DNA of 64,000 nucleotides, taken from NCBI GenBank assembly GCA_027531395.1, contig JAPZRO010000003.1, positions 248,001-312,000 of the forward strand. The letters are read 5' to 3'. The stretch comes from Porphyrobacter sp. Its GTDB lineage: Bacteria; Pseudomonadota; Alphaproteobacteria; Sphingomonadales; Sphingomonadaceae. This document shows positions 29,180 to 64,000 of the stretch, piece after piece. Both the position numbers and the translations under genes were made by a program. Each line of letters begins with the position of its first letter. Position 1 is the first letter of the stretch. The notes beneath the pieces are model-generated. The model searched no databases. It was given only the letters and a program-made list of their open reading frames with translations, and was not told the origin of the DNA.

Positions 29180-29295
29180 CGTGATTGCACGGGCACCATA
29201 CACCTTCACGCCATACCGATAGGCGCGGGAAAACGCGTCACGGCATTGGGGAACCAGGGCGCGCAAACTTTGCGGCCCGCAGGGGAGAGAGAGCA

Positions 29296-31826: not shown

Positions 31827-31845
31827 CCAAAAGTGAGGATTGCCG
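31827..31845 (+). promoter_or_regulatory. CCAAAA-N7-TTGCCG promoter-like motif before the second Rieske gene
   Basis: CCAAAA (31827-31832), seven bases, then TTGCCG (31840-31845) as a possible -35. GATGCT follows 17 bases later as a weak -10. The same layout precedes several other catabolic genes here. Found by eye. Confidence 0.4.
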
Positions 31846-31902
31846 CTAGGCACGGGAAGGCGGATGCTCCTTTCTAATGACGCAGGCCGGGAGAGGAACG
31901 CC

Positions 31903-45595: not shown

Positions 45596-45596
45596 G

Positions 45597-48670: not shown

Positions 48671-48699
48671 GGTGCCATAGACGCCTTGCGGGGCCGGGG

Positions 48700-48718
48700 C
48701 GGCAACCCGTCATTTTGG
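48700..48718 (-). promoter_or_regulatory. CCAAAA-N7-TTGCCG promoter-like motif before the KstD-like gene
   Basis: On the minus strand, CCAAAA (48718-48713), TGACGGG, then TTGCCG (48705-48700). TCTATG follows 18 bases later at 48681-48676, and the start codon is 5 nt beyond. The layout is identical to that at 31827. Confidence 0.4.
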
Positions 48719-48773
48719 CAAGGTGCGCGCCTGCGCCGAGGCGGCTACCCACGCAGGCAAAGGAGAGTGAGCC

Positions 48774-49550
48774 ATGAAACTCGAAGGAAAAGTCGCCGCA
48801 ATCACCGGCGGGACGGCAGGCATGGGGCGCGGGATCGCCGAGGCGTTTCTGGCCGAGGGCGGCAAGGTCGCGCTGTTCGCGCGCAATGCCGAAAAGGGCG
48901 CGAAGGTGCTGGAGGAACTGGGCGCAGGCGAAAACGCGATCTTCATCGCCGGGGACGTGATGAGCCAGGCCGATCTCGAAGGCTTCATCGACCAGACCAT
49001 CGCCCATTTCGGCACGCTCGACATTCTGGTGAACAATGCGGGCGGCGCGGGCGATTTGCAGCCGCTCGTCAACCTGTCCGATCACGCCTTTGACGAGGCG
49101 ATGAAGTGGAACGTCTATTCGACCTTCTGGGCCACCCGCCGCGCGCTGCCGACCATGCTGGAGAAGGGCGACGGGCGGATCATCAACATCTCCTCGATGG
49201 AGGGCAAGCACGGCAAGCCGGTGCTGACCGCCTATTCCGCCGCCAAGCACGCGGTGAACGGCATGACCAAGAGCCTCGCGCGCGAAGTCGGGGCGCAGGG
49301 TGTGACCGTCAACGCGATCTGCCCCGGCCTCGTGATCACCGACATCATCAAGAACAACGGCCCCGCCACCGCCAAGGCGATGGGGATGGAGCTGGAAGAG
49401 ATGATCGCGCTGTTCGCCAGCGAGGCCGCGATCAAGCGCCCCAACGAGGTCGAGGAAATCGCCGCCGTGGCGGTGCTGCTCGCCAGCAAGGCCGGCGCAG
49501 GCATCACCGGCGCGCAGATCAGCGTCGACGGCGGGACCGCGCAGTACTGA
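48774..49550 (+). CDS. Classical SDR oxidoreductase
   Basis: 258 residues. TGGTAGMG binds the cofactor, followed by NNAGG and a catalytic Ser (NISSMEG) with YSAAK. The C-terminus GAQISVDGGTAQY is standard. The ATG follows AAAGGAGAG. It diverges from the KstD-like gene, so a shared alcohol/ketone pathway is plausible, but the substrate is not identifiable. It is followed by the parS-like palindrome. Confidence 0.88.
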   Translation: MKLEGKVAAITGGTAGMGRGIAEAFLAEGGKVALFARNAEKGAKVLEELGAGENAIFIAGDVMSQADLEGFIDQTIAHFGTLDILVNNAGGAGDLQPLVNLSDHAFDEAMKWNVYSTFWATRRALPTMLEKGDGRIINISSMEGKHGKPVLTAYSAAKHAVNGMTKSLAREVGAQGVTVNAICPGLVITDIIKNNGPATAKAMGMELEEMIALFASEAAIKRPNEVEEIAAVAVLLASKAGAGITGAQISVDGGTAQY

Positions 49551-49583
49551 GGTCATTGCGCGGTCGTTGTCGGTTCATTGCCG

Positions 49584-50437: not shown

Positions 50438-50492
50438 CACGTGTCTCCTCTCGGGGAAGCGAGTAACACGGGCAGCCCCGCGCCGACCCTTC

Positions 50493-50511
50493 CCAAAAGT
50501 GTCCATTGTTC
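50493..50511 (+). promoter_or_regulatory. CCAAAA-N7-TTGTTC promoter-like motif before the NTF2-fold gene
   Basis: CCAAAA (50493-50498), GTGTCCA, then TTGTTC (50506-50511), with TGATAG about 16 bases later as a possible -10 and the ATG at 50565. Same layout as at 31827 and 48700. Confidence 0.35.
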
Positions 50512-50564
50512 GCGCGAGGCGCGGGCCTGATAGCCGCAGGCAACACCGTGGGGAGAGCACGACA

Positions 50565-50975
50565 ATGTTTACAGGACCGCTGGAGGATCGCGTGGCGATC
50601 GCCGAATTGAACGGCACCTATGCCGATGGCGTGGTGCGCATCGATGCCGCCACCTGGGCCACCGTATGGGCCGATGATGCCGACTGGGATCTGATGGGCC
50701 ACAAGACCCACGGCAAGGAGGCGATCGTCGCCTTCTGGAACGGCGCGATGAGCGGTCTGGAGGCGGTGAGCTTCCACTGCGTGCCCTGCATGATCGAGGT
50801 CACCGGCGACACTGCGAAGGCACGGGTGCAGACGCAGGAAATCCTGAAGCCCAAGGAGGGCAAGGCGCGCCATGTCGGCGGGCTTTATGAAGACACCTTG
50901 GCGAAGATCGACGGGCAGTGGCGCTTCACCAGCCGCACCTTCAGGATCGTCGCCGAATTCGGAGTGGAGAGCTAA
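50565..50975 (+). CDS. SnoaL-like NTF2-fold protein
   Basis: 136 residues from ATG 50565, with GGGGAGAG about 9 nt upstream. The SnoaL_4 pattern is AIAELNGTYADGVVRID, then WATVWADDADWDLMGH and FTSRTFRIV. It may be an isomerase, dehydratase or ligand-binding protein. It is followed 2 nt later by an ABM-fold gene, repeating the NTF2/ABM pairing seen at 41349-42268. Confidence 0.82.
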   Translation: MFTGPLEDRVAIAELNGTYADGVVRIDAATWATVWADDADWDLMGHKTHGKEAIVAFWNGAMSGLEAVSFHCVPCMIEVTGDTAKARVQTQEILKPKEGKARHVGGLYEDTLAKIDGQWRFTSRTFRIVAEFGVES

Positions 50976-50977
50976 AC

Positions 50978-51319
50978 ATGGCCAAGATCGTCATTTCCGC
51001 GCAGATCGACCTCGATCCCGCCCAGCGCGAGGAAGCCCTGCGCTCCGCCCGCCCGCATATCGAGGCCGCGCTCGCCGAGAAGGGCTGCATCCACTACGAC
51101 TGGAGCGCGTGCTCGATGAACCCCGCGCGGGTCAACGTGTTCGAGGAATGGGAAAGCGAGGAAGACCTCGCCGCGCACTTCCGCGATCCGGCCTATACCG
51201 GGATGCGCGATCACATCGGCCAGTTCGGCATCACCGCCGCGGTCAGCAAGAAGTATCGCGTCGATGCCGAAGGCCCGGTCTACAACGCCGAAGGGCAGGC
51301 GACCGAAGCGTTTGACTAG
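50978..51319 (+). CDS. ABM-fold (quinol monooxygenase-like) protein
   Basis: 113 residues with the ABM ferredoxin-like pattern: KIVISAQIDLDPAQREEAL, then VNVFEEWESEEDLAAHFRDPAY. YgiN-like members oxidise quinols without cofactor; others are structural. It follows the SnoaL-like gene by 2 nt. Its end overlaps the likely mobA start by 8 nt in another frame. Confidence 0.78.
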   Translation: MAKIVISAQIDLDPAQREEALRSARPHIEAALAEKGCIHYDWSACSMNPARVNVFEEWESEEDLAAHFRDPAYTGMRDHIGQFGITAAVSKKYRVDAEGPVYNAEGQATEAFD

Positions 51320-51830
51320 GCTTCTCGGAGCCATTCTCGCGGGCGGACAGGCGCGCCGCTTCGGCAGCGACAAGGCGCAGGCGCTCTATCAGGGCGCACG
51401 CCTGATCGACCGGGTGGCGGCGGCGCTTGTCGCGCAGTGCGAAGCGCTGGTCGTCTGCGGGCGCGAGGAACCCGGTTTTGCCTGCATTCCCGACTGGCCC
51501 GAACCCGGCCTCGGCCCATTGGGCGGACTCGCCGCCGCGCTGCGCCATGCGGGCGAGCAGGGCTTTTCCCATGTCCTGTCCGCCGGTGTGGACGCACCCG
51601 ATCTGCCGCATGATCTGGCCGCTAGCCTCGCAGGCGAAGGGGCGGCGATTGTCGAGAGCCAGCCCGTGGTCGGGCTGTGGCCGGCCGAGGCAGGGCCTGC
51701 GCTGGAGGCCTTCATCGCGGGCGGCGGCCGCTCGCTCTACCGCTTCGCCGATCACATCGGCGCCCGGCAGATCGAGCTTCCCGCCCCGCTGATGAACGTC
51801 AACCGGCCGGAGGACTTGCCCCCGGCCTGA
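51312..51830 (+). CDS. mobA: Molybdenum cofactor guanylyltransferase
   Basis: 172 residues from a TTG at 51312. The nucleotide loop LAGGQARRFGSDKA and the segments GPLGGLAAAL and MNVNRPEDL are the MobA signature. It attaches GMP to molybdopterin to make MGD, the cofactor form used by the DMSO-reductase family. The start is uncertain: no ATG fits, and the TTG overlaps the ABM stop. A molybdopterin oxidoreductase lies 1.1 kb downstream, so local supply of cofactor for that enzyme is likely (inference). MobA normally sits elsewhere with other moa/mob genes. Confidence 0.85.
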   Translation: MTRLLGAILAGGQARRFGSDKAQALYQGARLIDRVAAALVAQCEALVVCGREEPGFACIPDWPEPGLGPLGGLAAALRHAGEQGFSHVLSAGVDAPDLPHDLAASLAGEGAAIVESQPVVGLWPAEAGPALEAFIAGGGRSLYRFADHIGARQIELPAPLMNVNRPEDLPPA

Positions 51831-51834
51831 GACG

Positions 51835-52839
51835 TCACAGCTTCAGCAGCTGCTTGCCGCGGTTCTGGCCGCTGAACAGGCGCTGGAGCGTCTGCGGCGC
51901 GTTTTCGAAGCCGTGCTGGATGTCTTCCTGATACTTCAGGCTGCCATCCTTGACGAAGCCTTCCAGCCGCTTGCGGATGCCGGGGAATTCGCTGGCCCAG
52001 TCGAGCACGATGAAGCCCGCCATGGTCCCGCGCCGGAACACGAGGTTGAAGTAGTTCTCCGGCCCGGCGGGCAGGCTCCCGGTCTCGTAACGGCTGATCC
52101 CGCCGCAGATCACCACCCGCGCGCCGGTGGCGATGCAGGCGAGCATGTCGTTGAGGATCTTGCCGCCGACATTGTCGTAGATCACGTCCACGCCGCGCGG
52201 GCACAGCTCGCGGATCTGGGCCTTCACATTGCCCGCCTTGTAGTCGATCGCGGCATCATAGCCCGCCTCTTTGACGAGCCAGTCGCACTTGTCCTGACCA
52301 CCCGCGATGCCGACCACGCGGCACCCGGCGATTTTGGCGAGCTGGCCGACGATACTTCCCGTCGCGCCGGCGGCGCCCGAGACCAGCACGGTATCGCCCG
52401 CGACCGGCTTGCCGACCTTGAACAGCCCGCAATAGGCGGTCAGCCCCGTCGTCCCCAGCACCGAGAGCACAGCGGTGGGCGATAGATCAGTTTCGACCTT
52501 GGTCAGCTCCTTGCCGTCGGTGACGAGGTATTCGGTCCAACCGGTGGTGCCGAACACCATGTCGCCCACCGCGAACCGCCCGCCATTGGAGGCGACCACC
52601 TCGGCGATCCCGCTGCCGCGCATCACGTCGCCGATGTTCATCGGGGCGACGTAGTCGGCGATGTTCTCCATCCAGCCCTTCTGCGCCGGATCGAAGCCGA
52701 GGAAATGAGTCTTGAGCAGCATCTCGCCCGGGCCCGGATCGGGCAGCTCGGCGGTGACGAGCTTGAAGTCGTTCTCGATCTCGATCCCGCGACCGCGCGG
52801 GTGACCGTTCAGGAGCCATTGGCGGGTGGTGGTGGGCAT
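51835..52839 (-). CDS. Zinc-free medium-chain dehydrogenase/reductase (CurA/PTGR-like)
   Basis: 334 residues. The NADPH loop is SGAAGATGSIVGQLAK, followed by the family motif VDVIYDNVGG; zinc-binding Cys/His are absent. It resembles PTGR1/CurA enone reductases. It lies tail to tail with mobA (4-nt gap) and diverges from the molybdopterin oxidoreductase. One of three paralogues in the window. Confidence 0.87.
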   Translation of the reverse strand: MPTTTRQWLLNGHPRGRGIEIENDFKLVTAELPDPGPGEMLLKTHFLGFDPAQKGWMENIADYVAPMNIGDVMRGSGIAEVVASNGGRFAVGDMVFGTTGWTEYLVTDGKELTKVETDLSPTAVLSVLGTTGLTAYCGLFKVGKPVAGDTVLVSGAAGATGSIVGQLAKIAGCRVVGIAGGQDKCDWLVKEAGYDAAIDYKAGNVKAQIRELCPRGVDVIYDNVGGKILNDMLACIATGARVVICGGISRYETGSLPAGPENYFNLVFRRGTMAGFIVLDWASEFPGIRKRLEGFVKDGSLKYQEDIQHGFENAPQTLQRLFSGQNRGKQLLKL

Positions 52840-52957: not shown

Positions 52958-55099
52958 ATGATGGGCGCCGAAACTCACAAGACCTTCTGCCGCTTCTGCC
53001 ACGCCAACTGCGCGATGGAAGTCGATGTCGTCGACGGCAAGGTGGTGGAGGTTCGCGGCGATCCGCAGGATCCCGCCTATGGTGGCTACACCTGCATGAA
53101 GGGCCGCGAGCTGCCGGATTCCCATAATTCCGAAAACCGTCTGCATCACAGCCTTGTACGCAATGACGCGGGCGAATTCGTCGAAACACCGATGCCGCAA
53201 GCCCTCGCCCATGTGGCGAGCGAGCTGCGCCGCATCATCGACACCTATGGCCCGCATTCGGTGGCGGTGTTCATGGGCTCGGGCGGTTTCCAGAACTCGG
53301 CCGCCATGGCCGCCTCGCTGAGCTTCGCCAACGCTGTCGGCAGCCGCAACTTCTACACCTCGGTGACGCTCGACCAGCCCGCCAAGGTGTTCACCACCGC
53401 GCGCTACGGCAAGTGGATGGCGGGGCCGAACACCTTCTCCGAAAGCGATGTTGCGCTGTTCATCGGCAACAACCCGATCGTCTCGCACTATGCGCCGGTC
53501 GGCGGGGTGCCGCCCTTCAGCCCCTCGCGCCGCATCCGCGACCAGAAGGCCAAGGGGTTGAAGCTGATCGTCGCCGACCCGCGCGAGAGCGATGTCGCGC
53601 GGCTGGCCGACATCTACCTCCCCGTGAAGCCGGGCGAGGATCCGGCGATGCTGGCGGGGATGCTCAACGTGATCATTTCCGAAGGGCTTTACGATCGCAA
53701 TTTCGTCGCCGCCCATGTCGATGGCTTCGACGAGCTGGCCGAGGCGGTGAAGGCCTTCCCGCCCGAAGTCGCGGCGGAGCGCGCAGGGCTCGACAAGGAT
53801 CAGCTCGTCGCCGCCGCGCGGATGTTCGCGGGCGGCTCGAAGGGCTGCGCCACCACCGGCACGGGGCCGGAAATGGCGGGCAACGGCACGCTCACCGAAT
53901 ATCTCGTCACCTGCCTCAACACCATCTGCGCCCGCTTTAAGCAGGAAGGCGAGAAGGCCGCGATCCCGGGCGTGTTCAGCCCCTACCAGACCGCCCGCCG
54001 CGCGCAGGTCGCCCCGCCGGTGCCGATGTTCGGCGCGGAAGGGATGCCGAAATCGCGCTTCCGCGGGCTGGGTCATCTCGGCTGGGAAATGCCCTGCAAC
54101 GTGCTCGCCGACGAAATCCTCACGCCGGGCGAAGGCCAGGTGCGCGCGTTGATCTCGGTCGGCGGCAATCCGGTGGTCGGCTTCCCCGATCAGGCCAAGA
54201 TGGTGCGCGCGCTCGATGACCTCGAACTCTTCGTGCAGATCGACCCGTGGATGAGCGCCAGCGCCAAGCGGGCGACCGTGGTGCTCGCACCCTCGCAATG
54301 CCTTGAGCGCGAGGACATCACCAACCTTTCCGAATGGTGGCACGAACAGCCCTACGCCCGCTACACCGAGGCGGTGGTCGAGGCGCCGGGCGACTGTATC
54401 GACGAATACGAGATGTTCTGGACGCTGGCGCATCACCTCGGGATCACCATGGTGCTGAACGGCGGCCCGCTGCCGATGGACCGCAAGCCGTCGAAGCAGG
54501 AATTCCTCGACCTGATGGTCGCGGGCAGCCTCAAGAAGCCCTCCGACGTGCGCAAGGATTGTCAAGCGAACGGCGGCGCGGCGATGGTCTATCCCGAGGT
54601 GCACCCGCTGGTCGAACCGCTCGACGAAAGCGAGTTCCACCGCTTCGATCTCGCGGTCGGCGCGATGCCGTCGGAAATCCTCAAATATGCCGCCAATCCG
54701 GCGAGCAAGGCGGGCTTCGACTTCCGCCTGATCAGCCGCCGCTCCAAGACGCGGTTCAACTCTATCGGCCACCCGCTCAAGAAGCTGCAGGCCAAGACCA
54801 CCACCAACCCGGCCTATATCCACCCCGAGGACATTGCCGCGCTGGGGCTGGAGGAAGGCGGGCTGGTGGCGATCACCTCGCCCCACGCCACCATTCACGG
54901 GGTGGTCAAGGCGAGCGACAAGGTGCGCCGCGGGATCGTGTCGATGGCCCACGCCTATGGCGATGCCGATGCCACCAAGGAGGACGTGCGCGAGCGCGGC
55001 TCCTCGACCAACCGGCTGGTGAGCGAGGTGGTCGATTACGACCCGATCACCGGCCAATCGCTCCAGAGCGCCATTCCGGTGAAGCTCGAACCGGCCTGA
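52958..55099 (+). CDS. Molybdopterin-dependent oxidoreductase (DMSO-reductase family)
   Basis: 713 residues from ATG 52958, with AAGGAGAGAG upstream. An N-terminal [4Fe-4S] site has Cys11, Cys14, Cys18 and Cys46 (C-x2-C-x3-C-x27-C), and the MGD-binding domains run to the C-terminus (ISVGGNPVVGFPD; YIHPEDIAALGLEEG). It has no Tat signal, so it is probably cytoplasmic. The metal ligand (Cys, Ser, Asp or Sec) cannot be named from the sequence alone. It heads a plus-strand run with an MDR reductase, a ThuA-like protein and an epoxide-hydrolase-like protein, so an anaerobic-type hydroxylation, dehydroxylation or hydration in the same pathway is possible. Confidence 0.88.
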   Translation: MMGAETHKTFCRFCHANCAMEVDVVDGKVVEVRGDPQDPAYGGYTCMKGRELPDSHNSENRLHHSLVRNDAGEFVETPMPQALAHVASELRRIIDTYGPHSVAVFMGSGGFQNSAAMAASLSFANAVGSRNFYTSVTLDQPAKVFTTARYGKWMAGPNTFSESDVALFIGNNPIVSHYAPVGGVPPFSPSRRIRDQKAKGLKLIVADPRESDVARLADIYLPVKPGEDPAMLAGMLNVIISEGLYDRNFVAAHVDGFDELAEAVKAFPPEVAAERAGLDKDQLVAAARMFAGGSKGCATTGTGPEMAGNGTLTEYLVTCLNTICARFKQEGEKAAIPGVFSPYQTARRAQVAPPVPMFGAEGMPKSRFRGLGHLGWEMPCNVLADEILTPGEGQVRALISVGGNPVVGFPDQAKMVRALDDLELFVQIDPWMSASAKRATVVLAPSQCLEREDITNLSEWWHEQPYARYTEAVVEAPGDCIDEYEMFWTLAHHLGITMVLNGGPLPMDRKPSKQEFLDLMVAGSLKKPSDVRKDCQANGGAAMVYPEVHPLVEPLDESEFHRFDLAVGAMPSEILKYAANPASKAGFDFRLISRRSKTRFNSIGHPLKKLQAKTTTNPAYIHPEDIAALGLEEGGLVAITSPHATIHGVVKASDKVRRGIVSMAHAYGDADATKEDVRERGSSTNRLVSEVVDYDPITGQSLQSAIPVKLEPA

Positions 55100-55121
55100 T
55101 CCTCTCAACCCAAGGACATTT

Positions 55122-56132
55122 ATGCCCACCAACCGTCGCTTCCTCCTCCAGCGCCGTCCTGACGGCACGCCCGTCAGGGAGGACTTCGCGCTTGTCACCG
55201 AAGACACGCCGGAGCTTGCCGAAGGCCAGTTCCTGATCCGCAACCACTACGCCTCGCTCGATCCGGCGATGCGCGGGTGGATGGATGCCGAGGGCAACTA
55301 CATGCCGCCGATCCCGCTCGGCGATCCGGTGCGCGCCAGCACCATCGGCGTGGTCGAAGCGAGCCGCGCGGAGGGCTTCGAGCCCGGCCAGTGGGTGATG
55401 GGCCTCAATGCGCTGGAGGATTACTCCATCGGGATTGCGGGCGGCTTCACCCAGCCGATCGACCCGAGCCTTGTGCCGAGCGTGACCAATTACCTGTCGA
55501 TCTTCGGGGCGGTCGGCATGACCGCCTATTTCGGCTTCCTCGAAGTGTGCGAGCCCAAAGCGGGCGAGACCGTGCTGGTCAGCGGCGCGGCGGGCGCGGT
55601 CGGCAGCCTTGTCGGCCAGCTCGCCAAGATCCACGGCTGCCGCGCGGTCGGGATCGCGGGCGGCCCGGCGAAATGTGCGCGCCTGATCGAGAAATACGGC
55701 TTCGATGCAGCCATCGACTATCGCGGCAAGGATGAAGCGGCCCTCACCGCCGCCATCGCCGAGGCCTGTCCGGACGGGGTCGACGTGATCTTCGAGAATG
55801 TCGGCGGGATCATCCTCGATGCCGGGCTGATGAACTTGAACCTCCATTCGCGGGTCGGGCTGTGCGGGCTCATCAGCGAATACAACACCGAGCCGCGCGG
55901 CATCCGCAACCTGTGGCAGCTGATCGTCAAGCGCGCCCATATCCGCGGCCTGCTGGTGGCTGACTATGTCGAGCGCTTCGGCGAGGGCGCACAGGCGATG
56001 GGCGTCTGGGCCGCGCAAGGCCGTCTGACCATCGACGAGCATATCGACGAGGGGCTGGAGAACGCCTTCGACAGCTTCATGCGGCTGTTCGCGGGGACCA
56101 ATGACGGCAAGATGATCCTCAAGATCGCCTGA
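55122..56132 (+). CDS. Zinc-free medium-chain dehydrogenase/reductase (CurA/PTGR-like)
   Basis: 336 residues. The NADPH loop is SGAAGAVGSLVGQLAK, followed by VDVIFENVGG, and no zinc site is present. It reads like an NADPH-dependent enone/alkenal reductase. It is 22 nt downstream of the molybdoenzyme and overlaps the ThuA-like start by one base (TGATG), so it is part of the operon. Closely related in layout to the paralogue at 51835. Confidence 0.87.
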   Translation: MPTNRRFLLQRRPDGTPVREDFALVTEDTPELAEGQFLIRNHYASLDPAMRGWMDAEGNYMPPIPLGDPVRASTIGVVEASRAEGFEPGQWVMGLNALEDYSIGIAGGFTQPIDPSLVPSVTNYLSIFGAVGMTAYFGFLEVCEPKAGETVLVSGAAGAVGSLVGQLAKIHGCRAVGIAGGPAKCARLIEKYGFDAAIDYRGKDEAALTAAIAEACPDGVDVIFENVGGIILDAGLMNLNLHSRVGLCGLISEYNTEPRGIRNLWQLIVKRAHIRGLLVADYVERFGEGAQAMGVWAAQGRLTIDEHIDEGLENAFDSFMRLFAGTNDGKMILKIA

Positions 56133-56899
56133 TGCGCCGCTCGCTGCTCGTGCTGTCCGGGGGGCATCCTTACGAGGAAGCCCCCTTCGCCGAGCTAATC
56201 GGCAGTCTCGGCGACTGGGAGGTGACCCACCTCGTCCACCCCGAAGGCGGCGAGGCGGACGCGGTCGAGGCCATCGGGGCAGCCAATGCGCTATTGTTCT
56301 ACGACATGGCGGGCTACAGCTTCGGCGAGGGCAAGGTGACGATGCGCCCTCCCTCGCCCGCTTTCCGCGCGGCGCTGGCCGCCCGTTTTGCCGCGGGCAA
56401 GGGCGCGGTGGCGATGCATCACGCGCTGGCCGGATGGGCGCTCTGGCCCGAATGGCACGACTGGCTCGGCGGCCAGTTCCACTATCAGCCCGGCAGCCAC
56501 GGGCCGGACTCGGGCTATCGCCACGATGTCGCCTATGAGGCACGCATCATTGCCGATCATCCGGTGACACGCGGCCTGCCCGCCAGCTTCCCCGTCACCG
56601 ACGAGCTCTACCTCTGCCCGATCGACGAAAGCGCCTTCATGCCGTTGGTGCGGGCCGAGGGCTTCGCCTTCACGCGGGACAATTTCTACTCCGCCGCCAA
56701 TGCCGTCGCGGGCGCGATGTTCTCGCGCGAGGGCTGGGAGCATCCTCAGGGCAGCAACTGCATCGCCTGGGAAAGCCGCACCTGCCCGGCTCCGCTCATC
56801 TACCTGCAATTCGGCGACGGCCCCGCCACCTACACCAACCGCCACGTTCGGCAGATGCTGGCCCAGGCGCTCGACTACACCTCAGGAGGAACCGCATGA
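56132..56899 (+). CDS. ThuA-like protein (1)
   Basis: 255 residues. A class I amidotransferase-like fold is seen: LLVLSGGHPYEEAPF at the start, MHHALAGWALWPEW and LGGQFHYQPGSH in the middle. These match the ThuA domain (PF06283-like) first known from trehalose/sugar utilisation loci. No catalytic Cys of true amidotransferases is visible. In sphingomonad clusters such proteins accompany steroid- or terpenoid-type genes (context). The start overlaps the MDR stop, and the end overlaps the next gene by 4 nt. A paralogue is at 62085. Confidence 0.75.
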   Translation: MRRSLLVLSGGHPYEEAPFAELIGSLGDWEVTHLVHPEGGEADAVEAIGAANALLFYDMAGYSFGEGKVTMRPPSPAFRAALAARFAAGKGAVAMHHALAGWALWPEWHDWLGGQFHYQPGSHGPDSGYRHDVAYEARIIADHPVTRGLPASFPVTDELYLCPIDESAFMPLVRAEGFAFTRDNFYSAANAVAGAMFSREGWEHPQGSNCIAWESRTCPAPLIYLQFGDGPATYTNRHVRQMLAQALDYTSGGTA

Positions 56900-57273
56900 C
56901 CCCGCAAGCCACCGTCGAAGCCTTCATCGCCCACTGGAACGCCTGCGACATCGACGCGATGCTGGCACTGTGCGCCGACGACATCGTCTATCACAACATC
57001 CCGATGGAGCCGGTTGTGGGCACCACGCAGATGCGCGCGATGGTCGAGGGCTTCCTCGCCAATATCGCCTCGTGCGACTGGCAGACCCACGCCATCGCCG
57101 CCAACGGCAACACCGTGCTGACCGAGCGCACCGATGCCTTCAACTTCAAGGACGGCCGCCGCGCGGCGATCCGGGTGATGGGCACCTTCGACATCGGCGC
57201 GGACGGCCGCATCACCGGCTGGCGCGACTATTTCGACATGGCCGAGTTCCAGCGCGAGTTTGCAGGTGGGTGA
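56896..57273 (+). CDS. Limonene-1,2-epoxide hydrolase-like protein
   Basis: 125 residues. All five active-site residues of the family are present: Tyr32 and Asn34 in VYHNIP, Arg78 and Asp80 in ERTDAF, and Asp111 in WRDYFD. Their spacings (2, 46, 2, 31) equal those of Rhodococcus LEH (Tyr53, Asn55, Arg99, Asp101, Asp132). The expected reaction is single-step hydration of an epoxide to a vicinal diol. It overlaps the ThuA-like gene by 4 nt and precedes the P450 at 57372, which could make the epoxide (inference). Confidence 0.88.
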   Translation: MTPQATVEAFIAHWNACDIDAMLALCADDIVYHNIPMEPVVGTTQMRAMVEGFLANIASCDWQTHAIAANGNTVLTERTDAFNFKDGRRAAIRVMGTFDIGADGRITGWRDYFDMAEFQREFAGG

Positions 57274-57371
57274 CAAGCGCGCGGCAATCCTAACACAAAC
57301 GCGCATCGCATCGCAGGCGCACTCATGGCTAGGCTCGCACCATAATTCCCAGGGGTCTGGAGCCTGCCAAC

Positions 57372-58625
57372 ATGAACAAGCCTGAAGGCAACGTCTTCGC
57401 GCCGGAAACGCTGATCGATCCGTTCGACTACTACCGCGCCGTGCACGATGCGGGGATCGCGATCGAACATCTCGAAGGCATGAACACCTGGGTCGTCTAT
57501 TCCTACGACCTGTGCAGCGAGGCGACCACCAAGCCGGAGATCTTCTCCAACGACTTCACCGCTCTGATGGGGCGTGAGGCGGACGAGGAAATCCAGGCGA
57601 TCCTTGCCGAGGGCTGGCCCGATCTGCCGACCCTGCTGACCGCCGACCATCCGGTCCACACCCGCAACCGCAAGCTCGTCAACCTCGCTTTCTCGGCCCC
57701 GCGCGTGAACGCGATCGAGGCCGACATGCGGCAGAAGTCGATCGACCTGATCGAGGCCTTCGCCGATCGCGGCGAATGCGAATTCGTCGAGGAATTCGGC
57801 GTGCCGCTGCCCGTGGCGATGATCGCGGGACAGATCGGGCTCGATGATGATCCCAAGCGGGTGAAGCGCTGGTCGGACGCGGCGGTCGACCGCTTCAGCC
57901 AGATGGTCGATCACCAGCGCAAGCTCGAATGCGCGCGCAGCCTTGTCGAGTTCCAGCACTACATGAAGGGCCTGATCGACGACCGCCGCGCCAATGGCGG
58001 CAATGATCTGCTGACCGATCTGGTCGAAGCGCGGGTCGAGGGGGAAACCCCGCTCAGCGACCCCGAAATCATGTCGCTGATGCAGCAGTTCATGGTGGCC
58101 GGCAACGAGACCACCACCTCGACGCTGGCCGGCGGCCTGCTCCAGCTGATCCGCAACCCCGACCAGATGGCCAAGGCCAAGGCGGCAGCCGGCGGGCGCG
58201 ATCCCAAGGTGATCATGAACCTTGTCGAGGAAGCGCTGCGCTATGAAACCCCGACGGCGGGGATGTGGCGCATCGTCAAGCAGGACACCGAGCTGGGCGG
58301 GATGAAGATCCCCAACGGCGCCATCGTCCAGCTGCGTTATGCCGCGGCCAACCGCGATCCTTCGAAGTTCCCCGATCCCGACAAGTTCGACATCGAGCGC
58401 GCCAATGCCCGCACCCACCTCGCCTTCGGCAAGGGGCCGCATATGTGCGTGGGCAACATGCTGAGCCGCAAGGAAATGCTGGTCGCCTTCGACGAGCTGC
58501 TCGAGCGGCTCGATAACTTCGCGGTCGCGGACGAGAAGGAAATCCGCATCCTCCCCAACATCCTGCTGCGCGGTGTGACGCACCTGCCGATCACGTTCAC
58601 GCGCTCTGGCACGCGGAAAGCCTGA
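57372..58625 (+). CDS. Cytochrome P450 (3)
   Basis: 417 residues. Helix I is FMVAGNETTTSTLA (canonical AGxETT), helix K is EEALRYE, and the haem loop is FGKGPHMCVGNMLSRKE. It is a soluble class I P450 of the type seen with terpenoid and steroid pathways. It sits 98 nt after the epoxide-hydrolase-like gene and 5 nt before an acyl-CoA dehydrogenase. CATAATTC 25 nt upstream may be a -10 for a second promoter. No ferredoxin or reductase is adjacent. Confidence 0.92.
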   Translation: MNKPEGNVFAPETLIDPFDYYRAVHDAGIAIEHLEGMNTWVVYSYDLCSEATTKPEIFSNDFTALMGREADEEIQAILAEGWPDLPTLLTADHPVHTRNRKLVNLAFSAPRVNAIEADMRQKSIDLIEAFADRGECEFVEEFGVPLPVAMIAGQIGLDDDPKRVKRWSDAAVDRFSQMVDHQRKLECARSLVEFQHYMKGLIDDRRANGGNDLLTDLVEARVEGETPLSDPEIMSLMQQFMVAGNETTTSTLAGGLLQLIRNPDQMAKAKAAAGGRDPKVIMNLVEEALRYETPTAGMWRIVKQDTELGGMKIPNGAIVQLRYAAANRDPSKFPDPDKFDIERANARTHLAFGKGPHMCVGNMLSRKEMLVAFDELLERLDNFAVADEKEIRILPNILLRGVTHLPITFTRSGTRKA

Positions 58626-58630
58626 CGCTC

Positions 58631-59713
58631 ATGAATTTCGACCTCTCCGAAGAACAGCAGATGTTCGTGACCTCGGTCGAGCGCTTCGCCGCGCCGGTCG
58701 ATGTCGAGGCACGCCGCAAGCTTCGCCTTTCGCCCACCGGCTATGACCGCGCGCGCTGGCAGAGCCTCGCCGAGATGGGCCTGATCGCCCTTTCCGCGAG
58801 CGAGGACGCGGGCGGCATGGGCGGCTCGGCGGTCGATCTGGCGCTGGTGCTCGAAGCGATCGGCAAGGCCAATGCGCCCGACCCGCTGCTCGAACACGGC
58901 ATCCTGCCCGCGCTGCTGCTCGAACGCGGCGGTGCTAGCGATGTGCTTGAAGGGGTTCTGGCAGGCGAGACCATCGCTACCCTCGCCTGGACCGAGCGGG
59001 GGCAGCGCTACAGCCCCAAGGCCAAGGGCATGAAAGCCGAGGGCACCGAAGGCAGCTTCACGCTCACCGGCGAGAAGACGATGGTGATGGGCGCGCTGCT
59101 GGCCGATCTGTTCATCGTCACTGCGGACCTTGGCGGGGATACCGCCTGCTTCCTCGTGCCCAAGGATGCGCCGGGGCTGGAGGTTCGCGCCTATCGCCTC
59201 GCCGATGGCAGTATCGCGGGCGAGCTGAAACTGACCCGCACCTCCGCTGCCACGAAGCTGGCGCTCGATGCCGCGGCGCTCGATGGGATCATCGCCGACA
59301 TCCGCCTGCTGGCGGCCGCCGAAATGGTCGGCCTCGGCCAGCGCCTGCTCGAAGACACCCTCGCCTATGTGAAGGAGCGCGAGCAGTTCGGGGTGGCGAT
59401 CGGCAGCTTCCAGGCGCTCCAGCACCGGCTGGTCGATTGCTATGCGCGCGGCGAACAGGCGCGCTCGATGCTCTACCGTGCCGCGCTGACCGACCGCGCC
59501 GATGCCGCCAAATGGCAGCGTGCCGCCGCCGGAGCCAAGGCCTTCATTGGCGAGAATGTCGACGCCATCGCCCGCGAGGCGGTGCAGATGCATGGCGGCA
59601 TGGGGATCACCGACGAGCTCGCCATCGGCCATGCGCTGAAGCGCGTGCTGCTGCTCGCGCGGCTGTTCGGCGATGTCGATACCGTGCTGGCGGAATATGC
59701 GCTTGCGGCGTGA
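58631..59713 (+). CDS. Acyl-CoA dehydrogenase, beta-type subunit
   Basis: 360 residues, short for the family. It keeps the general fold but departs at the flavin loops: LAWTERG and KTMVMGALLAD replace the usual T-E-P-xxGSD and W-x-T/S motifs. The C-terminal catalytic Glu segment reads RLFGDVDTVLAEY, without the Glu. Such divergent proteins form the beta half of alpha2-beta2 dehydrogenases in steroid side-chain degradation (ChsE-type, FadE28/FadE29). The likely alpha partner is at 62879. Five nt after the P450. Confidence 0.83.
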   Translation: MNFDLSEEQQMFVTSVERFAAPVDVEARRKLRLSPTGYDRARWQSLAEMGLIALSASEDAGGMGGSAVDLALVLEAIGKANAPDPLLEHGILPALLLERGGASDVLEGVLAGETIATLAWTERGQRYSPKAKGMKAEGTEGSFTLTGEKTMVMGALLADLFIVTADLGGDTACFLVPKDAPGLEVRAYRLADGSIAGELKLTRTSAATKLALDAAALDGIIADIRLLAAAEMVGLGQRLLEDTLAYVKEREQFGVAIGSFQALQHRLVDCYARGEQARSMLYRAALTDRADAAKWQRAAAGAKAFIGENVDAIAREAVQMHGGMGITDELAIGHALKRVLLLARLFGDVDTVLAEYALAA

Positions 59714-59739
59714 CCGCCGCGCTGGAGGGGACTGACATA

Positions 59740-60165
59740 ATGGGCGAAAAGATCGACCCGAACCTGTGGAGCGACGGCGCGGAGCCGCACCTGATGGGCG
59801 GCAGGCTGCCTTCGGGCGAGATCGTCTTTCCGATGCCGGTCGGCGATGCGGCGCAAGGCGTGGAGCCCTACAAGCTCTCGCGCCGCGGCAAGCTGTGGTC
59901 GTGGACCTCGCAGGGGTTCTTGCCCAAGGAGCCCTATGAAGGCCCCGGCAGCGGCCCCGGCGAAGGCCCGCCCGACTTCCAGCCCTTCCTCTTGGGCTAT
60001 GTCGAACTGCCCGGCGAGGTGATCGTCGAGAGCCGGATCGTCGATGCGCGGCTGGAGGACCTTCACCTCGGCATGGACCTCGAATTCTGCATCGTGCCGT
60101 TCAACGCGCGCTACGACACCTTCGCCTTCCGTCCCATCGCCGCCGCAGAAAGCAAAGCCGCATGA
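59740..60165 (+). CDS. DUF35 OB-fold protein lacking the zinc-ribbon cysteines
   Basis: 141 residues of the OB-fold DUF35 family that partners thiolases. It shows the LSRRGKLWSWTSQGFLP strand and DLEFCIVPFNAR near the end. The rubredoxin-like zinc ribbon expected at about residues 17-45 has no Cys: GGRLPSGEIVFPMPVGD occupies that place. In ChsH2 the DUF35 domain supports the retro-aldolase Ltp2. The next gene, a thiolase-like protein, overlaps by 4 nt, matching that pairing. Twenty-six nt after the dehydrogenase. Confidence 0.83.
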   Translation: MGEKIDPNLWSDGAEPHLMGGRLPSGEIVFPMPVGDAAQGVEPYKLSRRGKLWSWTSQGFLPKEPYEGPGSGPGEGPPDFQPFLLGYVELPGEVIVESRIVDARLEDLHLGMDLEFCIVPFNARYDTFAFRPIAAAESKAA

Positions 60166-61316
60166 GCGAGAATGTCTACATCATCGGCGCGGGGATTCAC
60201 CCGTTTGGCCGCACCGACAGCCGTTCGGGCCGCGAACAAGGCGTCTATGCCGTGCGCGAGGCGCTGGCCGATGCCGGGCTCGACTGGCCCGATATCGAGT
60301 GCGCCTATGGCGGCTCGGCCGCGGCGGGCAATGCCGACATCATGGTCAACGAACTGGGGCTGACCAGCCTCCCCTTCACCAACGTCGCCAACGGCTGCGC
60401 CACCGGCGGCAGTGCGCTCGCCGCCTCGCAGCAGGCGATCGCGAGCGGGATGTATGATCTCGCGCTGGCGGTCGGCTTCGACAAGCACCCGCGCGGCGCG
60501 TTCAACGCCAAGCCCGCCGATTACGGCCTGCCCGAATGGTACGGCCAAACCGGCATGATGCTGACGACGCAGTTCTTCGCGCTCAAGATCCAGCGCTACA
60601 TGCAGCTGCACGGCATCAGCCGCACGACGCTGGGCCGGGTGGCCGAAAAGGCCTTCCGCAACGGCACGATCACGCCGCACGCATGGCGGCGCAGCCCGGT
60701 CGATCTCGACACGATCATGAATGCGCCGATGATCAACGATCCGCTGACCAAGTACATGTTCTGCTCGCCGGCCGAGGGCGCGGTGGCGCTGATCCTCGCG
60801 TCAGAAAAGAAGATGAAGGAGCTCGGTGCCGACGGGGTCAAAATCCGCGCCGTCGCGGTCAAGACCCGCCCGCCCAACTCCTTCGAGGTGTTCCAGGCCG
60901 GCATCAGTATCGAGGAGGGCGGCAAGCCCACCGTGCTCGCCAGCAAGGCCGCGTTCGAGAAGGCCGGCGTCGGCCCGGAGGACATCTCGGTCGCCCAGCT
61001 GCAGGACACCGAAAGCGGCGCGGAAATCATGCACATGGCCGAAAACGGCTTCTGCAAGGATGGTGAGCAGGAAGAATGGCTCGCCAATGGCTGGACCGAG
61101 ATCAACGGCGGGAAGCTGCCGGTCAACACCGACGGCGGGTGCCTCGCCTGCGGAGAGCCGATCGGCGCTTCGGGCCTGAGGCAGGTCTATGAAAACGTCC
61201 AGCAGCTGCGCCAGCGCGGCGGCGAGCGGCAGGTGCCCGGAAAACCCCGCCTCGGCTATTCCCACGTCTACGGCGCGCCGGGCCTCTCGGCGGTTGCAAT
61301 CCTGGAGCGCGAATGA
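60162..61316 (+). CDS. Thiolase-like protein (SCP2/Ltp2 type)
   Basis: 384 residues of the thiolase superfamily. The nucleophile-position Cys79 is in VANGCATGGSA. CLACGEPIGASG lies in the third region, but the last thiolase motif reads SHVYGAPGLSAV, with Tyr370 where thiolases carry Cys. Ltp2-type steroid retro-aldolases of this superfamily also depart from the thiolase set and need a DUF35 partner. A C-C cleaving role on a side-chain CoA ester is proposed. The ATG overlaps the DUF35 stop, and the end overlaps the next SDR. Confidence 0.87.
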   Translation: MSENVYIIGAGIHPFGRTDSRSGREQGVYAVREALADAGLDWPDIECAYGGSAAAGNADIMVNELGLTSLPFTNVANGCATGGSALAASQQAIASGMYDLALAVGFDKHPRGAFNAKPADYGLPEWYGQTGMMLTTQFFALKIQRYMQLHGISRTTLGRVAEKAFRNGTITPHAWRRSPVDLDTIMNAPMINDPLTKYMFCSPAEGAVALILASEKKMKELGADGVKIRAVAVKTRPPNSFEVFQAGISIEEGGKPTVLASKAAFEKAGVGPEDISVAQLQDTESGAEIMHMAENGFCKDGEQEEWLANGWTEINGGKLPVNTDGGCLACGEPIGASGLRQVYENVQQLRQRGGERQVPGKPRLGYSHVYGAPGLSAVAILERE

Positions 61317-62083
61317 GCAGGATGCAGGGCAAGGTCGCGCTGGTCTCGGGCGGCGCGGAAGGGATCGGGGCTGCGGTCGCGCGTCTGATCGTCGCTGAAG
61401 GCGGCAGCGTGATGCTGGGCGATGTCCAGCTGGAAAAGGCGCAGGCGCTTGCGGCGGAACTGGGCGGGCGGGCCGATGCCTGCCAGCTCGACGTGCGTGA
61501 CCTGCGCCAGTGGGAAGCCGCCGTTTCGGCGACCCGCGGGCGGTTCGGCAAACTCACCGTGCTGTGCAACATCGCCGGCATCTCGGAGCCCGGCAACGTC
61601 CCTGACGGTTCGCTCGACGTGTGGGAGCGCACCATCGACATCAACCTGCATGGCCCCTTCTACGGGATGCGCGCCGCGATCCCGGCGATGGAGGCGAGCG
61701 GGGAGCCCTGCGCGATCGTCAATATCGGCTCGATGATCGCGATGCGCCCGGCGGCTTTCGTCGCGGCCTATTCGGCGTCCAAGGCGGGCCTACGCGGCCT
61801 GACCCAATCGGTCGCGCTCGATCTGGCGGAACGGGGCCTGCCGATCCGCGCCAACATGGTCCACCCCGGCGCGATCCGCACGCCGATGTACAACCGCTAC
61901 AAGTTCTCAGGGGCCGATACGCCCGAGAACATCGAGACCAATTTCGCCGCCACCCATCCGATGAACCGCATCGGCGAGCCCGAGGAGGTCGCCCGCGCCG
62001 TCGTCTTCCTCGCCAGCGACGAGGCGAGCTTCACCACCGGCTGCGATTTCACCGTCGATGGCGGCGGCAGCATCAGGAGCTGA
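61313..62083 (+). CDS. Classical SDR oxidoreductase
   Basis: 256 residues with SGGAEGIG for NAD(P), NIAG in place of NNAG, Ser in NIGSMIA and catalytic YSASK. The C-terminal TGCDFTVDGGGSI is standard. It could oxidise a beta-hydroxyacyl-CoA or a ring hydroxyl. It overlaps the thiolase-like gene by 4 nt and precedes the ThuA-like gene by 1 nt, so it is firmly in the operon. Confidence 0.88.
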   Translation: MSRMQGKVALVSGGAEGIGAAVARLIVAEGGSVMLGDVQLEKAQALAAELGGRADACQLDVRDLRQWEAAVSATRGRFGKLTVLCNIAGISEPGNVPDGSLDVWERTIDINLHGPFYGMRAAIPAMEASGEPCAIVNIGSMIAMRPAAFVAAYSASKAGLRGLTQSVALDLAERGLPIRANMVHPGAIRTPMYNRYKFSGADTPENIETNFAATHPMNRIGEPEEVARAVVFLASDEASFTTGCDFTVDGGGSIRS

Positions 62084-62084
62084 C

Positions 62085-62840
62085 ATGGCAGAACAACCCG
62101 CCACCCGTATCGACGCGCATTTCATTGCTGCGGGCAAGTATCACGATATCGACTATCCGCGGCTCGAGATCCTCAAGCTGCTGGCCGAGCATCCGCACAT
62201 CCGCACCACCGTGGCGGCGGACTATTCGGGTCTCGAGCGGCTCGACCAATGCCGCTTCCTCATCACCTATACCTGCGACCTCATGCCGACCGTGGAACAG
62301 GCCGCGCAATTGAAGGCGTGGGTGGCCAAGGGCGGCAAGTGGATGGCGCTGCACGGCACCAATTCGATCCTCGTCTTCACCGCCGAAGGCCTCGTCGATG
62401 CACCGGATGATCGCCCCGACGTGATGGAAATGCTCGGCACCCAGTTCGTCGCCCACCCGCCGATCGACAAGTTCCCGGTCGAGGTGGTCAACAAGGATCA
62501 CGAGCTGACCCGCGGGATCGAGGATTTCGAAGTGGTCGACGAGCTCTACCTCTCCAAGACCACCGCGCCGATCGACACGCTGATGCAGACCACCTTCGAA
62601 GGCGAGGCGACCGGCTTCACGCGAAGCCAATGGCCCAAGACGACCGTACCTATCGTTTATACGAGGGATATCGGCGCGGGCCGGATCGTTTACAACGCGC
62701 TCGGTCACTGCCGTGGGCATTACGATCTGCCCGGCATGGCCGATTTCTACCCGCACAAGGAAATGTGCGCCTGGAATTACGATGTCTATTATGACCTCCT
62801 GCGGCGATCGATCCGCTGGGCCATGAGAGACGGGGCCTGA
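62085..62840 (+). CDS. ThuA-like protein (2)
   Basis: 251 residues from ATG 62085, one base after the SDR stop. The ThuA pattern is AHFIAAGKYHDIDYPRL, CRFLITYTCD, WMALHGTNS, LGTQFVAHPP and RIVYNALGHCRGHY. The last motif (NALGHxxxHY) is typical and may bind metal or substrate. A paralogue at 56132 lies in the same gene run. The function is unknown; the operon context suggests processing of a ring or side-chain intermediate. Confidence 0.77.
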   Translation: MAEQPATRIDAHFIAAGKYHDIDYPRLEILKLLAEHPHIRTTVAADYSGLERLDQCRFLITYTCDLMPTVEQAAQLKAWVAKGGKWMALHGTNSILVFTAEGLVDAPDDRPDVMEMLGTQFVAHPPIDKFPVEVVNKDHELTRGIEDFEVVDELYLSKTTAPIDTLMQTTFEGEATGFTRSQWPKTTVPIVYTRDIGAGRIVYNALGHCRGHYDLPGMADFYPHKEMCAWNYDVYYDLLRRSIRWAMRDGA

Positions 62841-62878
62841 ACCGCCCGACTGACGACGACGAACGGGATCGATACGAC

Positions 62879-64000
62879 ATGGACATGGACTTCTCCCCCG
62901 AGGACATCGCCTTCCGCGAAGAAGTGCGCGCGTTCCTTAAGGACAATCTGCCCGATCGCCTGCGCGACGGTGCGCGGCGCACGCCGGGGGTGTTCGTCGA
63001 GCCCGATATCGGGATGGAATGGCACCGCATCCTCTACAAGCAGGGCTGGGTTGCCCCGCACTGGCCCAAGGAAGACGGCGGCACCGGCTGGACCCCGACG
63101 CAGAAGTTCATCTTCGAGAAGGAATGCGCGCTCGCCGGCGCGCCGGCGCTGGCGATCCTCGGCCTGCGGCTTGTCGGCCCGGTGATCTGCCACTTCGGCA
63201 CCCCGGAGCAGAAGGCACGCTTCCTGCCCGGCATCCTGTCGGGCGATGATTACTGGTGTCAGGGCTATTCCGAGCCGGGCTCGGGTTCCGACCTTGCGAG
63301 CCTCAAGACCAGTGCGCGCCTTGAGGGTGACGAATATGTCATCAACGGCTCCAAGATCTGGACCACCCACGCCCACCACGCCGACTGGATCTTCGCGCTG
63401 GTGCGCACCGATGCGAGCGTGAAGAAGCAGCAGGGGATCAGCTTCCTGCTGGTGCCGATGGACCAGCCGGGCGTGGAAGTGACCCCGATCTACTCGATGT
63501 CGGGCGATCACGAGGTCAACGCGGTGTTCTTCACCGATGCCCGCACCCCCGCCTGCAACCGCATCGGCGACGAGGGCGCAGGCTGGACCATCGCCAAGTT
63601 CCTGCTCGAGAACGAGCGCGGCGGATCGTGCTACGCCCCGCGCCTGCTCCAGAGCATCGACCGACTCGAGAACCTCGCCCAGACCCAGCCTTCGGGTGTT
63701 AACGGCGCGCTCGCGCATGATCCGCGCTTCCGCGACCGGCTCGCACGCGTCAGGCTCGAGGCCGAGGCGCTGGAAGTGACCGAGCTGCGCATCCTCGCCG
63801 AACTCGCCAAGGGCCGCGCGCCGGGGCCGCAGACCTCGCTGGTCAAGCTGCTGGGCTCGAACATCGGCCAGAAGATCGATGTGCTGCGGCTCGAACTGCT
63901 CGGGCCGGACGCGCTGCAACTGCCGCTCGAACGTCCGCTCTACGGCAACGAGGCGCCCGAGCCGGTCGGCAGCGAATATGCCCAGACCGCGATGGGCAAG
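62879..64000 (+). CDS. Acyl-CoA dehydrogenase, alpha-type subunit (3' end outside window)
   Basis: 374 codons from ATG 62879 to the right edge, with no stop. Flavin motifs are canonical: GYSEPGSGSDLAS (129-141) and KIWTTHAHHADW (159-170). Glu246 in LLENERGG falls where ChsE4-type alpha subunits of steroid side-chain dehydrogenases carry their catalytic base. Paired with the divergent subunit at 58631, it may form an alpha2-beta2 enzyme acting on a bulky acyl-CoA. An alternative ATG two codons later is possible. It lies 38 nt after the ThuA-like gene. Confidence 0.88.
   Translation, partial: MDMDFSPEDIAFREEVRAFLKDNLPDRLRDGARRTPGVFVEPDIGMEWHRILYKQGWVAPHWPKEDGGTGWTPTQKFIFEKECALAGAPALAILGLRLVGPVICHFGTPEQKARFLPGILSGDDYWCQGYSEPGSGSDLASLKTSARLEGDEYVINGSKIWTTHAHHADWIFALVRTDASVKKQQGISFLLVPMDQPGVEVTPIYSMSGDHEVNAVFFTDARTPACNRIGDEGAGWTIAKFLLENERGGSCYAPRLLQSIDRLENLAQTQPSGVNGALAHDPRFRDRLARVRLEAEALEVTELRILAELAKGRAPGPQTSLVKLLGSNIGQKIDVLRLELLGPDALQLPLERPLYGNEAPEPVGSEYAQTAMGK

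Follow-up and report, generated by a model that had tools for sequence, protein, structure and literature searches.

A large and conserved gene cluster, apparently undescribed, in an Erythrobacter-like bacterium: a possible catabolic operon for oxygenated alicyclic compounds

The last part of a 64,000-nucleotide stretch from the 3.2-Mb genome of a Porphyrobacter species (contig C11, positions 248001–312000; the whole stretch is referred to here as the window) is occupied by a block of eleven closely spaced genes, part of a large cluster that is conserved and, it appears, undescribed. Our preferred reading, to which we give a probability of roughly 0.45, is that the block is a catabolic operon for an oxygenated alicyclic natural compound, probably an isoprenoid (terpenoid-like) one, whose degradation follows a path other than the 9,10-seco steroid route. 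An alicyclic, perhaps isoprenoid, substrate is the most likely one, given the KstD-type dehydrogenase, the Rieske and P450 oxygenases, the enone reductases and the CoA ligases encoded in and around the block. With this cluster, aquatic bacteria of the Erythrobacter type probably degrade terpenoid-like ring molecules.

The eleven open reading frames (ORFs) run on the plus strand from 52958 to beyond 64000, all with an ATG start and a TGA stop. In order, they encode a molybdopterin enzyme (Mo), an enone reductase (EneR), a ThuA-family protein (ThuA1), a limonene-epoxide-hydrolase-like protein (LEH), a P450, a beta-type acyl-CoA dehydrogenase (ACDb), an OB-fold protein (OB), a thiolase-superfamily protein (Thl), a short-chain dehydrogenase (SDR1), a second ThuA-family protein (ThuA2) and an alpha-type acyl-CoA dehydrogenase (ACDa; table 1). 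The successive spacings from Mo through ACDa are 22, -1, -4, 98, 5, 26, -4, -4, 1 and 38 nt. A first-pass annotation of this DNA had described the same gene order and near-continuous spacing, which the ORF coordinates confirm, and each family name that it gave to a block gene is backed by a Pfam match.

Conservation was followed across a sample of 298 genomes of the family, with ThuA1 matches sought at E <= 0.001 and Thl matches at E <= 1e-120. ThuA1 matched in 43 genomes, and after eight weak matches (E 2.9e-6 or worse) had been dropped, full-length homologues were counted in 35 of the 298, 33 of which also carry Thl. Thl itself is present in 63 genomes (about one fifth; counted by E value, not by motif). 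The 20-kb stretches around each of 36 ThuA1 matches outside the host were then read: the order P450-ACDb-OB-Thl-SDR1-ThuA2-ACDa recurs on one strand in 14 of them, five of which (L049–L053) carry additional SDR-like genes interspersed among Mo, EneR, ThuA1 and P450. A further locus, the fifteenth (L047), is cut by a contig end after P450, and one more (L054) holds most parts of the block, rearranged. The other 20 loci have no block, two of them (L066 and L070) carrying single partners. An EneR homologue (at least 57% identity) lies within about 4 kb of ThuA1 in 28 of the 36 loci, and ThuA plus enone reductase form a pair of their own, even without the block. Such pairs (ThuA1 about 40% and EneR 57–69% identical, within about 4 kb) were seen in 12 of the 20 non-block loci (L055–L069 except L058, L066 and L068).

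A wider scan of a sequence collection for Thl, made with two search patterns, one of them containing the motif QDTE, gave at least 577 confirmed loci, the best 80 of which were considered further. These 80 come from Erythrobacter, Blastomonas, Novosphingobium, Sphingopyxis, Sphingobium, Sphingomonas, a SAR92 bacterium, a Marinomonas bin and others; among the matches listed, the closest named relatives are Erythrobacter and Porphyrobacter, with up to 97% identity. Partner genes (at least 40% identity over at least 60% coverage) were counted in the 53 loci that span at least 20 kb, the 27 shorter ones being dropped: OB in 49, ACDa 48, ACDb 43, EneR 40, a LuxR regulator 38, Mo 37, ThuA2 36, P450 36, ThuA1 30, SDR1 30 and LEH 21. 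These loci are not independent, because Thl was the basis of their selection and close relatives are numerous among them; in a control of 20 spaced windows of one relative, each of 23 queries was found in 0 of 20. Around the 16 most distant Thl genes the count is ACDa 15, LuxR 13, OB 12, ACDb 10, ThuA2 10, EneR 5 and P450 3, together with subunits of a 2-oxoacid dehydrogenase (E1b 12, E1a 10, E2 10). The wider core is thus ACDb, OB, Thl, ACDa and LuxR, often with ThuA2, and its companion half consists of either Mo-EneR-ThuA1-P450 or 2-oxoacid-dehydrogenase genes. Given the block order in 14 of 36 loci, and an OB/Thl core that further genera of Sphingomonadales and a SAR92 bacterium also have, synteny extends beyond close relatives, as the first-pass annotation had proposed to check in other Sphingomonadales. 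Among cultured strains, the complete block is present in Erythrobacter tepidarius DSM 10594 and E. ramosus JCM 10282 (loci L084 and L089), and Novosphingobium aromaticivorans DSM 12444 has the core alone. QDTE-type Thl proteins outside Sphingomonadales occur in SAR92 bacterium H921 (L133, 75% identical), the Marinomonas bin (L140, 72%) and on a Rhodococcus opacus plasmid (L078, 62%), a distribution that suggests transfer between classes and phyla.

The most distinctive member of the core is Thl. In the available part of its text, PMC12329534 gives the catalytic loop as YDHF in Ltp2 and YDCY in Sal. Thl has QDTE at this position and GEP in place of GHP, and keeps Cys 79. In an aligned set of 99 sequences, 78 come from the pattern-using scan and 21 were found independently of the motif; the signature is present in 20 of these 21, the single exception being a 28% identical paralogue with YDAF (L070). 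QDTE is also present in 78 of the 78 scan-derived sequences, all of which hold the other pattern and 69 both, a count that is partly circular because one of the two patterns contains QDTE, so the other 21 give the fair figure. As for an SCP2-type thiolase, the Cys loop is kept, HDCF is replaced by QDTE and GHP by GEP, and Thl does not qualify as one. In a midpoint-rooted tree of 43 sequences (15 of the QDTE type, 27 paralogues of three family genomes and one Rhodococcus paralogue; Ltp2 and Sal references are not among the tips), the QDTE sequences are monophyletic with support 0.975 and separate from the HDCF, YDHF, YDCF, YDAF and a few other types. Two further thiolase-like paralogues (L188 and L190) have VYDLS and GEA loops, yet another motif type. 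The partner OB has a CxxC zinc motif in 0 of 87 homologues, and 80 of the 87 contain at most one Cys. To judge from its loop residues, the active site of Thl differs from those of known steroid side-chain enzymes.

This bears directly on what the block resembles at first sight. One rival explanation is an operon for the side chain of sterols or bile acids, in which CYP125/142-like C26 oxidation and CoA ligation are followed by a ChsE-type acyl-CoA dehydrogenase (ACAD) and ChsH2/Ltp2-type aldolysis, and which feeds a ring-degrading cluster on contig C15 of the host. It draws on a P450 that is nearest to CYP142 and CYP125, on the ACAD pair and the OB/thiolase-like pair, on a KstD-like neighbour and on HsaC-like and FadD3/IpdE2-like genes elsewhere in the host genome. 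The first-pass annotation had recognized the same ChsE/ChsH2/Ltp2 logic and proposed an undescribed route for a cyclic terpenoid or steroid; both pairs are indeed present and a catabolic operon for an alicyclic or isoprenoid compound fits, but a ChsE/ChsH2/Ltp2 mechanism for them is not supported. ACDa and ACDb match PimC/PimD-type profiles, both below curated cut-offs, and ERGG, which we take to be catalytic, is found in 87 of 87 ACDa homologues. The catalytic motif of Ltp2/Sal is missing from Thl and the zinc motif from OB, and none of the five MaoC matches of the host genome lies on contig C11. There is no crotonase in the island around the block; two matches on the contig, at 14.9–16.8 kb, are about 250 kb away.

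Nor does the core travel with the ring-cleaving dioxygenase of the seco route. Of the 63 Thl genomes, 15 have an HsaC-like gene (E <= 1e-30), against 44 of the remaining 235 (odds ratio 1.36, p = 0.38), which is no association over the 298 genomes; since none of these matches reaches the curated cut-off, other extradiol enzymes may be counted in. Of 16 block genomes, the host among these 16, two have an HsaC-like gene, and with the related model TIGR03213 eight give no hit at E <= 0.001 (one of the eight, G018, is 85% complete); congeners such as G260 hold the block with no such match. That the Thl core shows no HsaC association speaks against the 9,10-seco route. We rejected a plain ChsE/ChsH2/Ltp2 assignment on the motif, zinc, MaoC and HsaC tests; the steroid side-chain resemblance is on the surface only, and we consider this explanation unlikely.

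An equally unlikely alternative is a simple route for an alicyclic or xenobiotic acid, similar to that for cyclohexanecarboxylate, in which the KstD-like protein would be a 4-oxocyclohexanecarboxylate dehydrogenase. This protein, encoded upstream of the block, keeps the equivalents of Tyr119, Tyr318, Tyr487 and Gly491 in an alignment with 8jbz, the numbers being those we take to be the catalytic residues of KstD, and its best Protein Data Bank (PDB) match is 7p18 at 316.7 bits. Its best NCBIfam model is ChcC1, with KstD models matching too, all below their cut-offs; for SDR1, too, ChcB1 scores among the top models. The ChcC1 score of 456.7 bits is nevertheless far under the cut-off of 1000 bits, and the many oxygenases, the enone reductases and the two ThuA genes would be more than such a route needs.

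The two ThuA proteins are the sole matches to PF06283 in the host genome at E <= 0.001. Both score above the Pfam gathering score and have ThuA-like predicted folds (ThuA1: mean pLDDT 90.8, nearest PDB entries 4e5v and 1t0b; ThuA2: 89.9, nearest 4jqs, 4pxy and 4e5v), which places them in the family. From the strand order of the models, ThuA1 would have a His-His pair (HHALAGW) where class I glutamine amidotransferases have the Cys elbow. By the same reckoning, ThuA2 would have ALHGTN at the class I glutaminase elbow, a motif kept in 68 of 68 homologues; LGHCRGHYD is kept in 65 of 68. ThuA was named for trehalose use, and a third explanation, somewhat less probable still, is a glycoside route: ThuA proteins and an AP_endonuc_2 TIM-barrel protein would process 3-keto-glycosides of a saponin-like terpenoid or steroid, and the rest of the genes would handle the aglycone. 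A TIM-barrel gene of this kind does lie downstream of the block, and on pNL2, a plasmid of N. aromaticivorans, a TIM-barrel gene adjoins genes for a GPH sugar symporter and a further ThuA protein, some 10 kb away from the core. Against it, no glycoside hydrolase or Gfo/Idh gene was found among the scanned island ORFs (part of all ORFs), ThuA2 lies near Thl in 10 of 16 far relatives, and ThuA1 keeps company with the enone reductase as described above. P450, SDR, SnoaL-fold and thiolase-like genes are also found in secondary-metabolite clusters, but a biosynthetic or tailoring role is very improbable given the CoA ligases, the ACAD pair, the TonB receptor, the MFS carrier and the Rieske enzymes, and no scaffold synthase was found among the scanned ORFs, again part of all ORFs.

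Limonene-1,2-epoxide hydrolase has an Arg-Asp-Asp active site with Tyr and Asn. Of 38 LEH homologues, at least 36 keep ERTD and at least 37 keep WRDYFD, and we presume that residues of these motifs have active-site roles; the SnoaL_2 family scores equal to LEH. For Mo, the nearest PDB entries are FdhF and acetylene hydratase. Its motif T(L/V)DQPAK is invariant in 59 of 59 sequences, with the Asp at or beside the position of the Sec/Cys ligand (the alignment leaves some doubt); as formate dehydrogenase has its selenocysteine loop here, this Asp may be a ligand of the metal. CYP142 and CYP125 are the nearest solved relatives of the P450, at 198 bits.

Several observations weigh against the catabolic reading that we prefer. 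The evidence for the substrate is indirect, and we know of no measured activity for ThuA proteins of this kind. The P450's nearness to CYP142/125 is a hint only, because the macrolide P450 EryF scores almost as well (184 bits, about 15 behind). The active-site Tyr of LEH is replaced by Trp in 20 of 38 homologues, and LEH was undetected in eight of the 14 syntenic loci. Near the 16 most distant Thl genes, Mo (1), P450 (3) and ThuA1 (0) are rare. Eight loci that hold EneR and Thl (L080, L106, L108, L121, L136, L141, L145 and L146) were checked since the locus map showed no ThuA1 there, and none has a match at E <= 0.001; ThuA1 is therefore not indispensable. Finally, the host carries an HsaC-like gene in the separate steroid-type cluster on C15, which makes steroid use by this strain plausible. 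In four of the eight checked loci, L080 (Erythrobacter donghaensis), L106, L108 and L121 (Blastomonas), the block is otherwise largely present, ThuA1 having been lost or replaced.

The catabolic reading can be laid out as a route in which every reaction, the order of the steps and the substrate class are proposals, built on established gene content, order, conservation, distribution, signatures and predicted ThuA folds. The substrate would be taken up by a TonB receptor and an MFS carrier, and oxygenated by P450 and Rieske enzymes; the LEH-like protein may open an epoxide, and SDRs would oxidize alcohols. The KstD-like enzyme would desaturate a cyclic ketone, and MDR reductases would adjust the enone. 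Hydrolytic opening of a ring dione or a related intermediate would fall to the ThuA proteins, and activation with CoA would follow. ACDa and ACDb, as a putative heteromer, would then carry out alpha,beta-desaturation of a branched acyl-CoA, and OB-Thl would cleave a C–C bond without a dedicated hydratase in the island, by means of a thiolase fold that keeps the Cys-79 loop and has QDTE and GEP in place of the base loops of SCP2-thiolases and steroid aldolases. A bolder and rather doubtful extension is that OB-Thl represents a further, undescribed catalytic class of the steroid-aldolase/SCP2-thiolase superfamily, which acts after a heteromeric ACAD and needs no hydratase of its own. Together with ThuA ring-opening hydrolases, it would then define a new route for cyclic isoprenoids that is widespread among aquatic Sphingomonadales and extends to some gammaproteobacteria.

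If the catabolic reading is true, it identifies the genes with which a class of ring compounds is consumed in lakes and the sea, assigns ThuA proteins a function beyond sugar metabolism and extends the thiolase-fold enzymes that act on C–C bonds by one catalytic class. The core gene Thl is present in about a fifth of the sampled genomes, yet no printed function for it was found in the open-access literature, to which our searches were confined (most subscription papers fall outside this scope). The same searches found no printed function for ThuA proteins in such clusters, no literature on this cluster or on ThuA together with acyl-CoA dehydrogenase and P450, and nothing relevant on ThuA in degradation by Sphingobium.

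On this reading the block forms the central operon in a catabolic island whose presumed boundaries lie about 45–55 kb apart. Besides the upstream genes of table 1, an MFS carrier and an ACAD lie on that side, where genes occupy both strands. The MobA-like protein possibly serves cofactor maturation for Mo. Most of the stretches read around syntenic loci end before the position of the KstD-like gene. Downstream of SDR2 are an acyl-CoA ligase (minus strand), the LuxR regulator, a VOC gene (minus strand) and Rieske, SDR and AP_endonuc_2 TIM-barrel genes, and further on E1 alpha and beta homologues with 38–40% identity to those of pNL2. The second host cluster, on C15 at about 388–425 kb (L163, L164), holds a FadD3 ligase above its cut-off, IpdE2-like and PimC-like ACADs, the HsaC-like dioxygenase (C15:403151-404023), MaoC and homologues of KstD, the P450 and the TonB receptor. 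The DNA is GC-rich, and several of its long ORFs on the minus strand or out of frame look like antisense artefacts. Window ORFs 48639-49556(-), 49926-50873(-) and 50872-51315(+), and L006:13154-14668(+) and L006:16008-16460(+), were rejected as genes, having no Pfam match and family-matching genes opposite or in another frame.

Table 1. Genes of the block and of the wider island, with positions in the window.
Feature	Position	Strand	Assignment	Support or remark
Mo	52958..55099	+	molybdopterin (DMSO-reductase superfamily) enzyme, FDH/acetylene-hydratase-like	Pfam Molybdopterin/Molybdop_Fe4S4/Molydop_binding; Fe4S4 motif
EneR	55122..56132	+	MDR-family enone (curcumin-reductase-like) reductase	Pfam ADH_N_2; NCBIfam CurA 324.5 bits, below cut-off of 440
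ThuA1	56132..56899	+	ThuA-family protein	Pfam ThuA; structure model
LEH	56896..57273	+	LEH/SnoaL-fold, limonene-epoxide-hydrolase-like	Pfam LEH 75.8 bits (cut-off 24), SnoaL_2 75.5
P450	57372..58625	+	P450, nearest solved relatives CYP142/CYP125	Pfam p450
ACDb	58631..59713	+	beta-type acyl-CoA dehydrogenase, PimD/IpdE2-like (below cut-offs)	Pfam Acyl-CoA_dh
OB	59740..60165	+	OB-fold (DUF35/ChsH2-C) partner without zinc motif	Pfam OB_ChsH2_C 37.4 bits
Thl	60162..61316	+	thiolase-superfamily protein, QDTE/GEP signature	Pfam Thiolase_C_1/N
SDR1	61313..62083	+	short-chain dehydrogenase	Pfam adh_short/adh_short_C2
ThuA2	62085..62840	+	second ThuA-family protein	Pfam ThuA; structure model
ACDa	62879..64087	+	alpha-type acyl-CoA dehydrogenase, PimC-like (below cut-off)	Pfam Acyl-CoA_dh; 87 nt beyond window end
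SDR2	64121-65023	+	twelfth gene of the run, outside window	33 nt gap after ACDa; best NCBIfam model 2,4-dienoyl-CoA reductase, below cut-off
ADHr	51835..52839	-	second MDR reductase	divergently oriented neighbour; synteny kept in relatives
MobA-like	51264..51830	+	nucleotidyltransferase	Pfam NTP_transf_3
ABM	50918..51319	+	ABM-domain protein	syntenic
SDR upstream of block	48774..49550	+	SDR	
KstD-like	47051..48670	-	3-keto ring dehydrogenase	
Rieske	45306..46928	+	Rieske oxygenase	ORF; true start may differ
Second P450	43835..45595	+	P450	ORF longer than gene
CoA ligase	37866..39458	+	AMP-forming CoA ligase	wider island
Rieske	31840-33132	+	Rieske oxygenase	wider island
TonB receptor	29185-31740	+	TonB-dependent receptor	wider island

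Some published systems were set aside as descriptions of this cluster. The available part of the text of PMC10653915, on tomatine-degrading Sphingobium, has no terms for ThuA, thiolase, acyl-CoA dehydrogenase or P450, although TomTYG65, a strain covered there, carries the core on a plasmid. The igr-like operon of Caenibius and the Chol11-type bile-salt clusters are other gene sets by their descriptions in the accessible portions of PMC12882949 and PMC8399759. For a link to geosmin, no relevant literature turned up.

Among known systems, the igr-type module for the steroid C3 side chain (ChsE1-ChsE2, ChsH1-ChsH2, Ltp2) has in common with the block an alpha/beta ACAD pair and a thiolase-fold gene beside an OB-fold (DUF35) gene; the block differs in having no MaoC hydratase and no zinc motif, QDTE and not YDHF, and no HsaC-type association. 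Shy-Sal, the hydratase/aldolase of the bile-acid C5 side chain in Comamonas, likewise pairs a thiolase fold with a DUF35-type OB partner. In the portions available of PMC11321319 and PMC12329534, Shy has a MaoC domain and a Cys3His1 zinc finger and Sal a catalytic YDCY, and all three, as described there, are absent from the block. The closest solved relatives of Thl by sequence are the benzoylsuccinyl-CoA thiolase BbsAB and SCP2-type thiolases (7pxp, 6hsj), which share the Cys-79 loop, whereas their HDCF/HDAF-type and GHP loops are replaced by QDTE and GEP, and OB lacks the zinc motif. With the KstD/AcmB 3-ketosteroid delta1-dehydrogenases, the KstD-like neighbour shares the four catalytic residues, the family models being matched below cut-offs. 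Also close are the OB-Thl-ACDa-E1a-E1b-E2-VOC clusters of Novosphingobium, Sphingobium and Croceicoccus, for which no function was found in the open-access literature and in which 2-oxoacid-dehydrogenase genes replace the Mo-EneR-ThuA1-P450 half of the host. Three of these (L075, pNL2 158529-187677; L076; L077) lie on large plasmids, where E1 alpha, E1 beta and E2 genes come after the OB-Thl-ACDa core, with VOC next in two of the three. Compared with the host, pNL2 encodes proteins with 47% (OB), 70% (Thl), 62% (ACDa), 39% (ACDb), 56% (LuxR), 46% (ThuA2) and 54% (VOC) identity.

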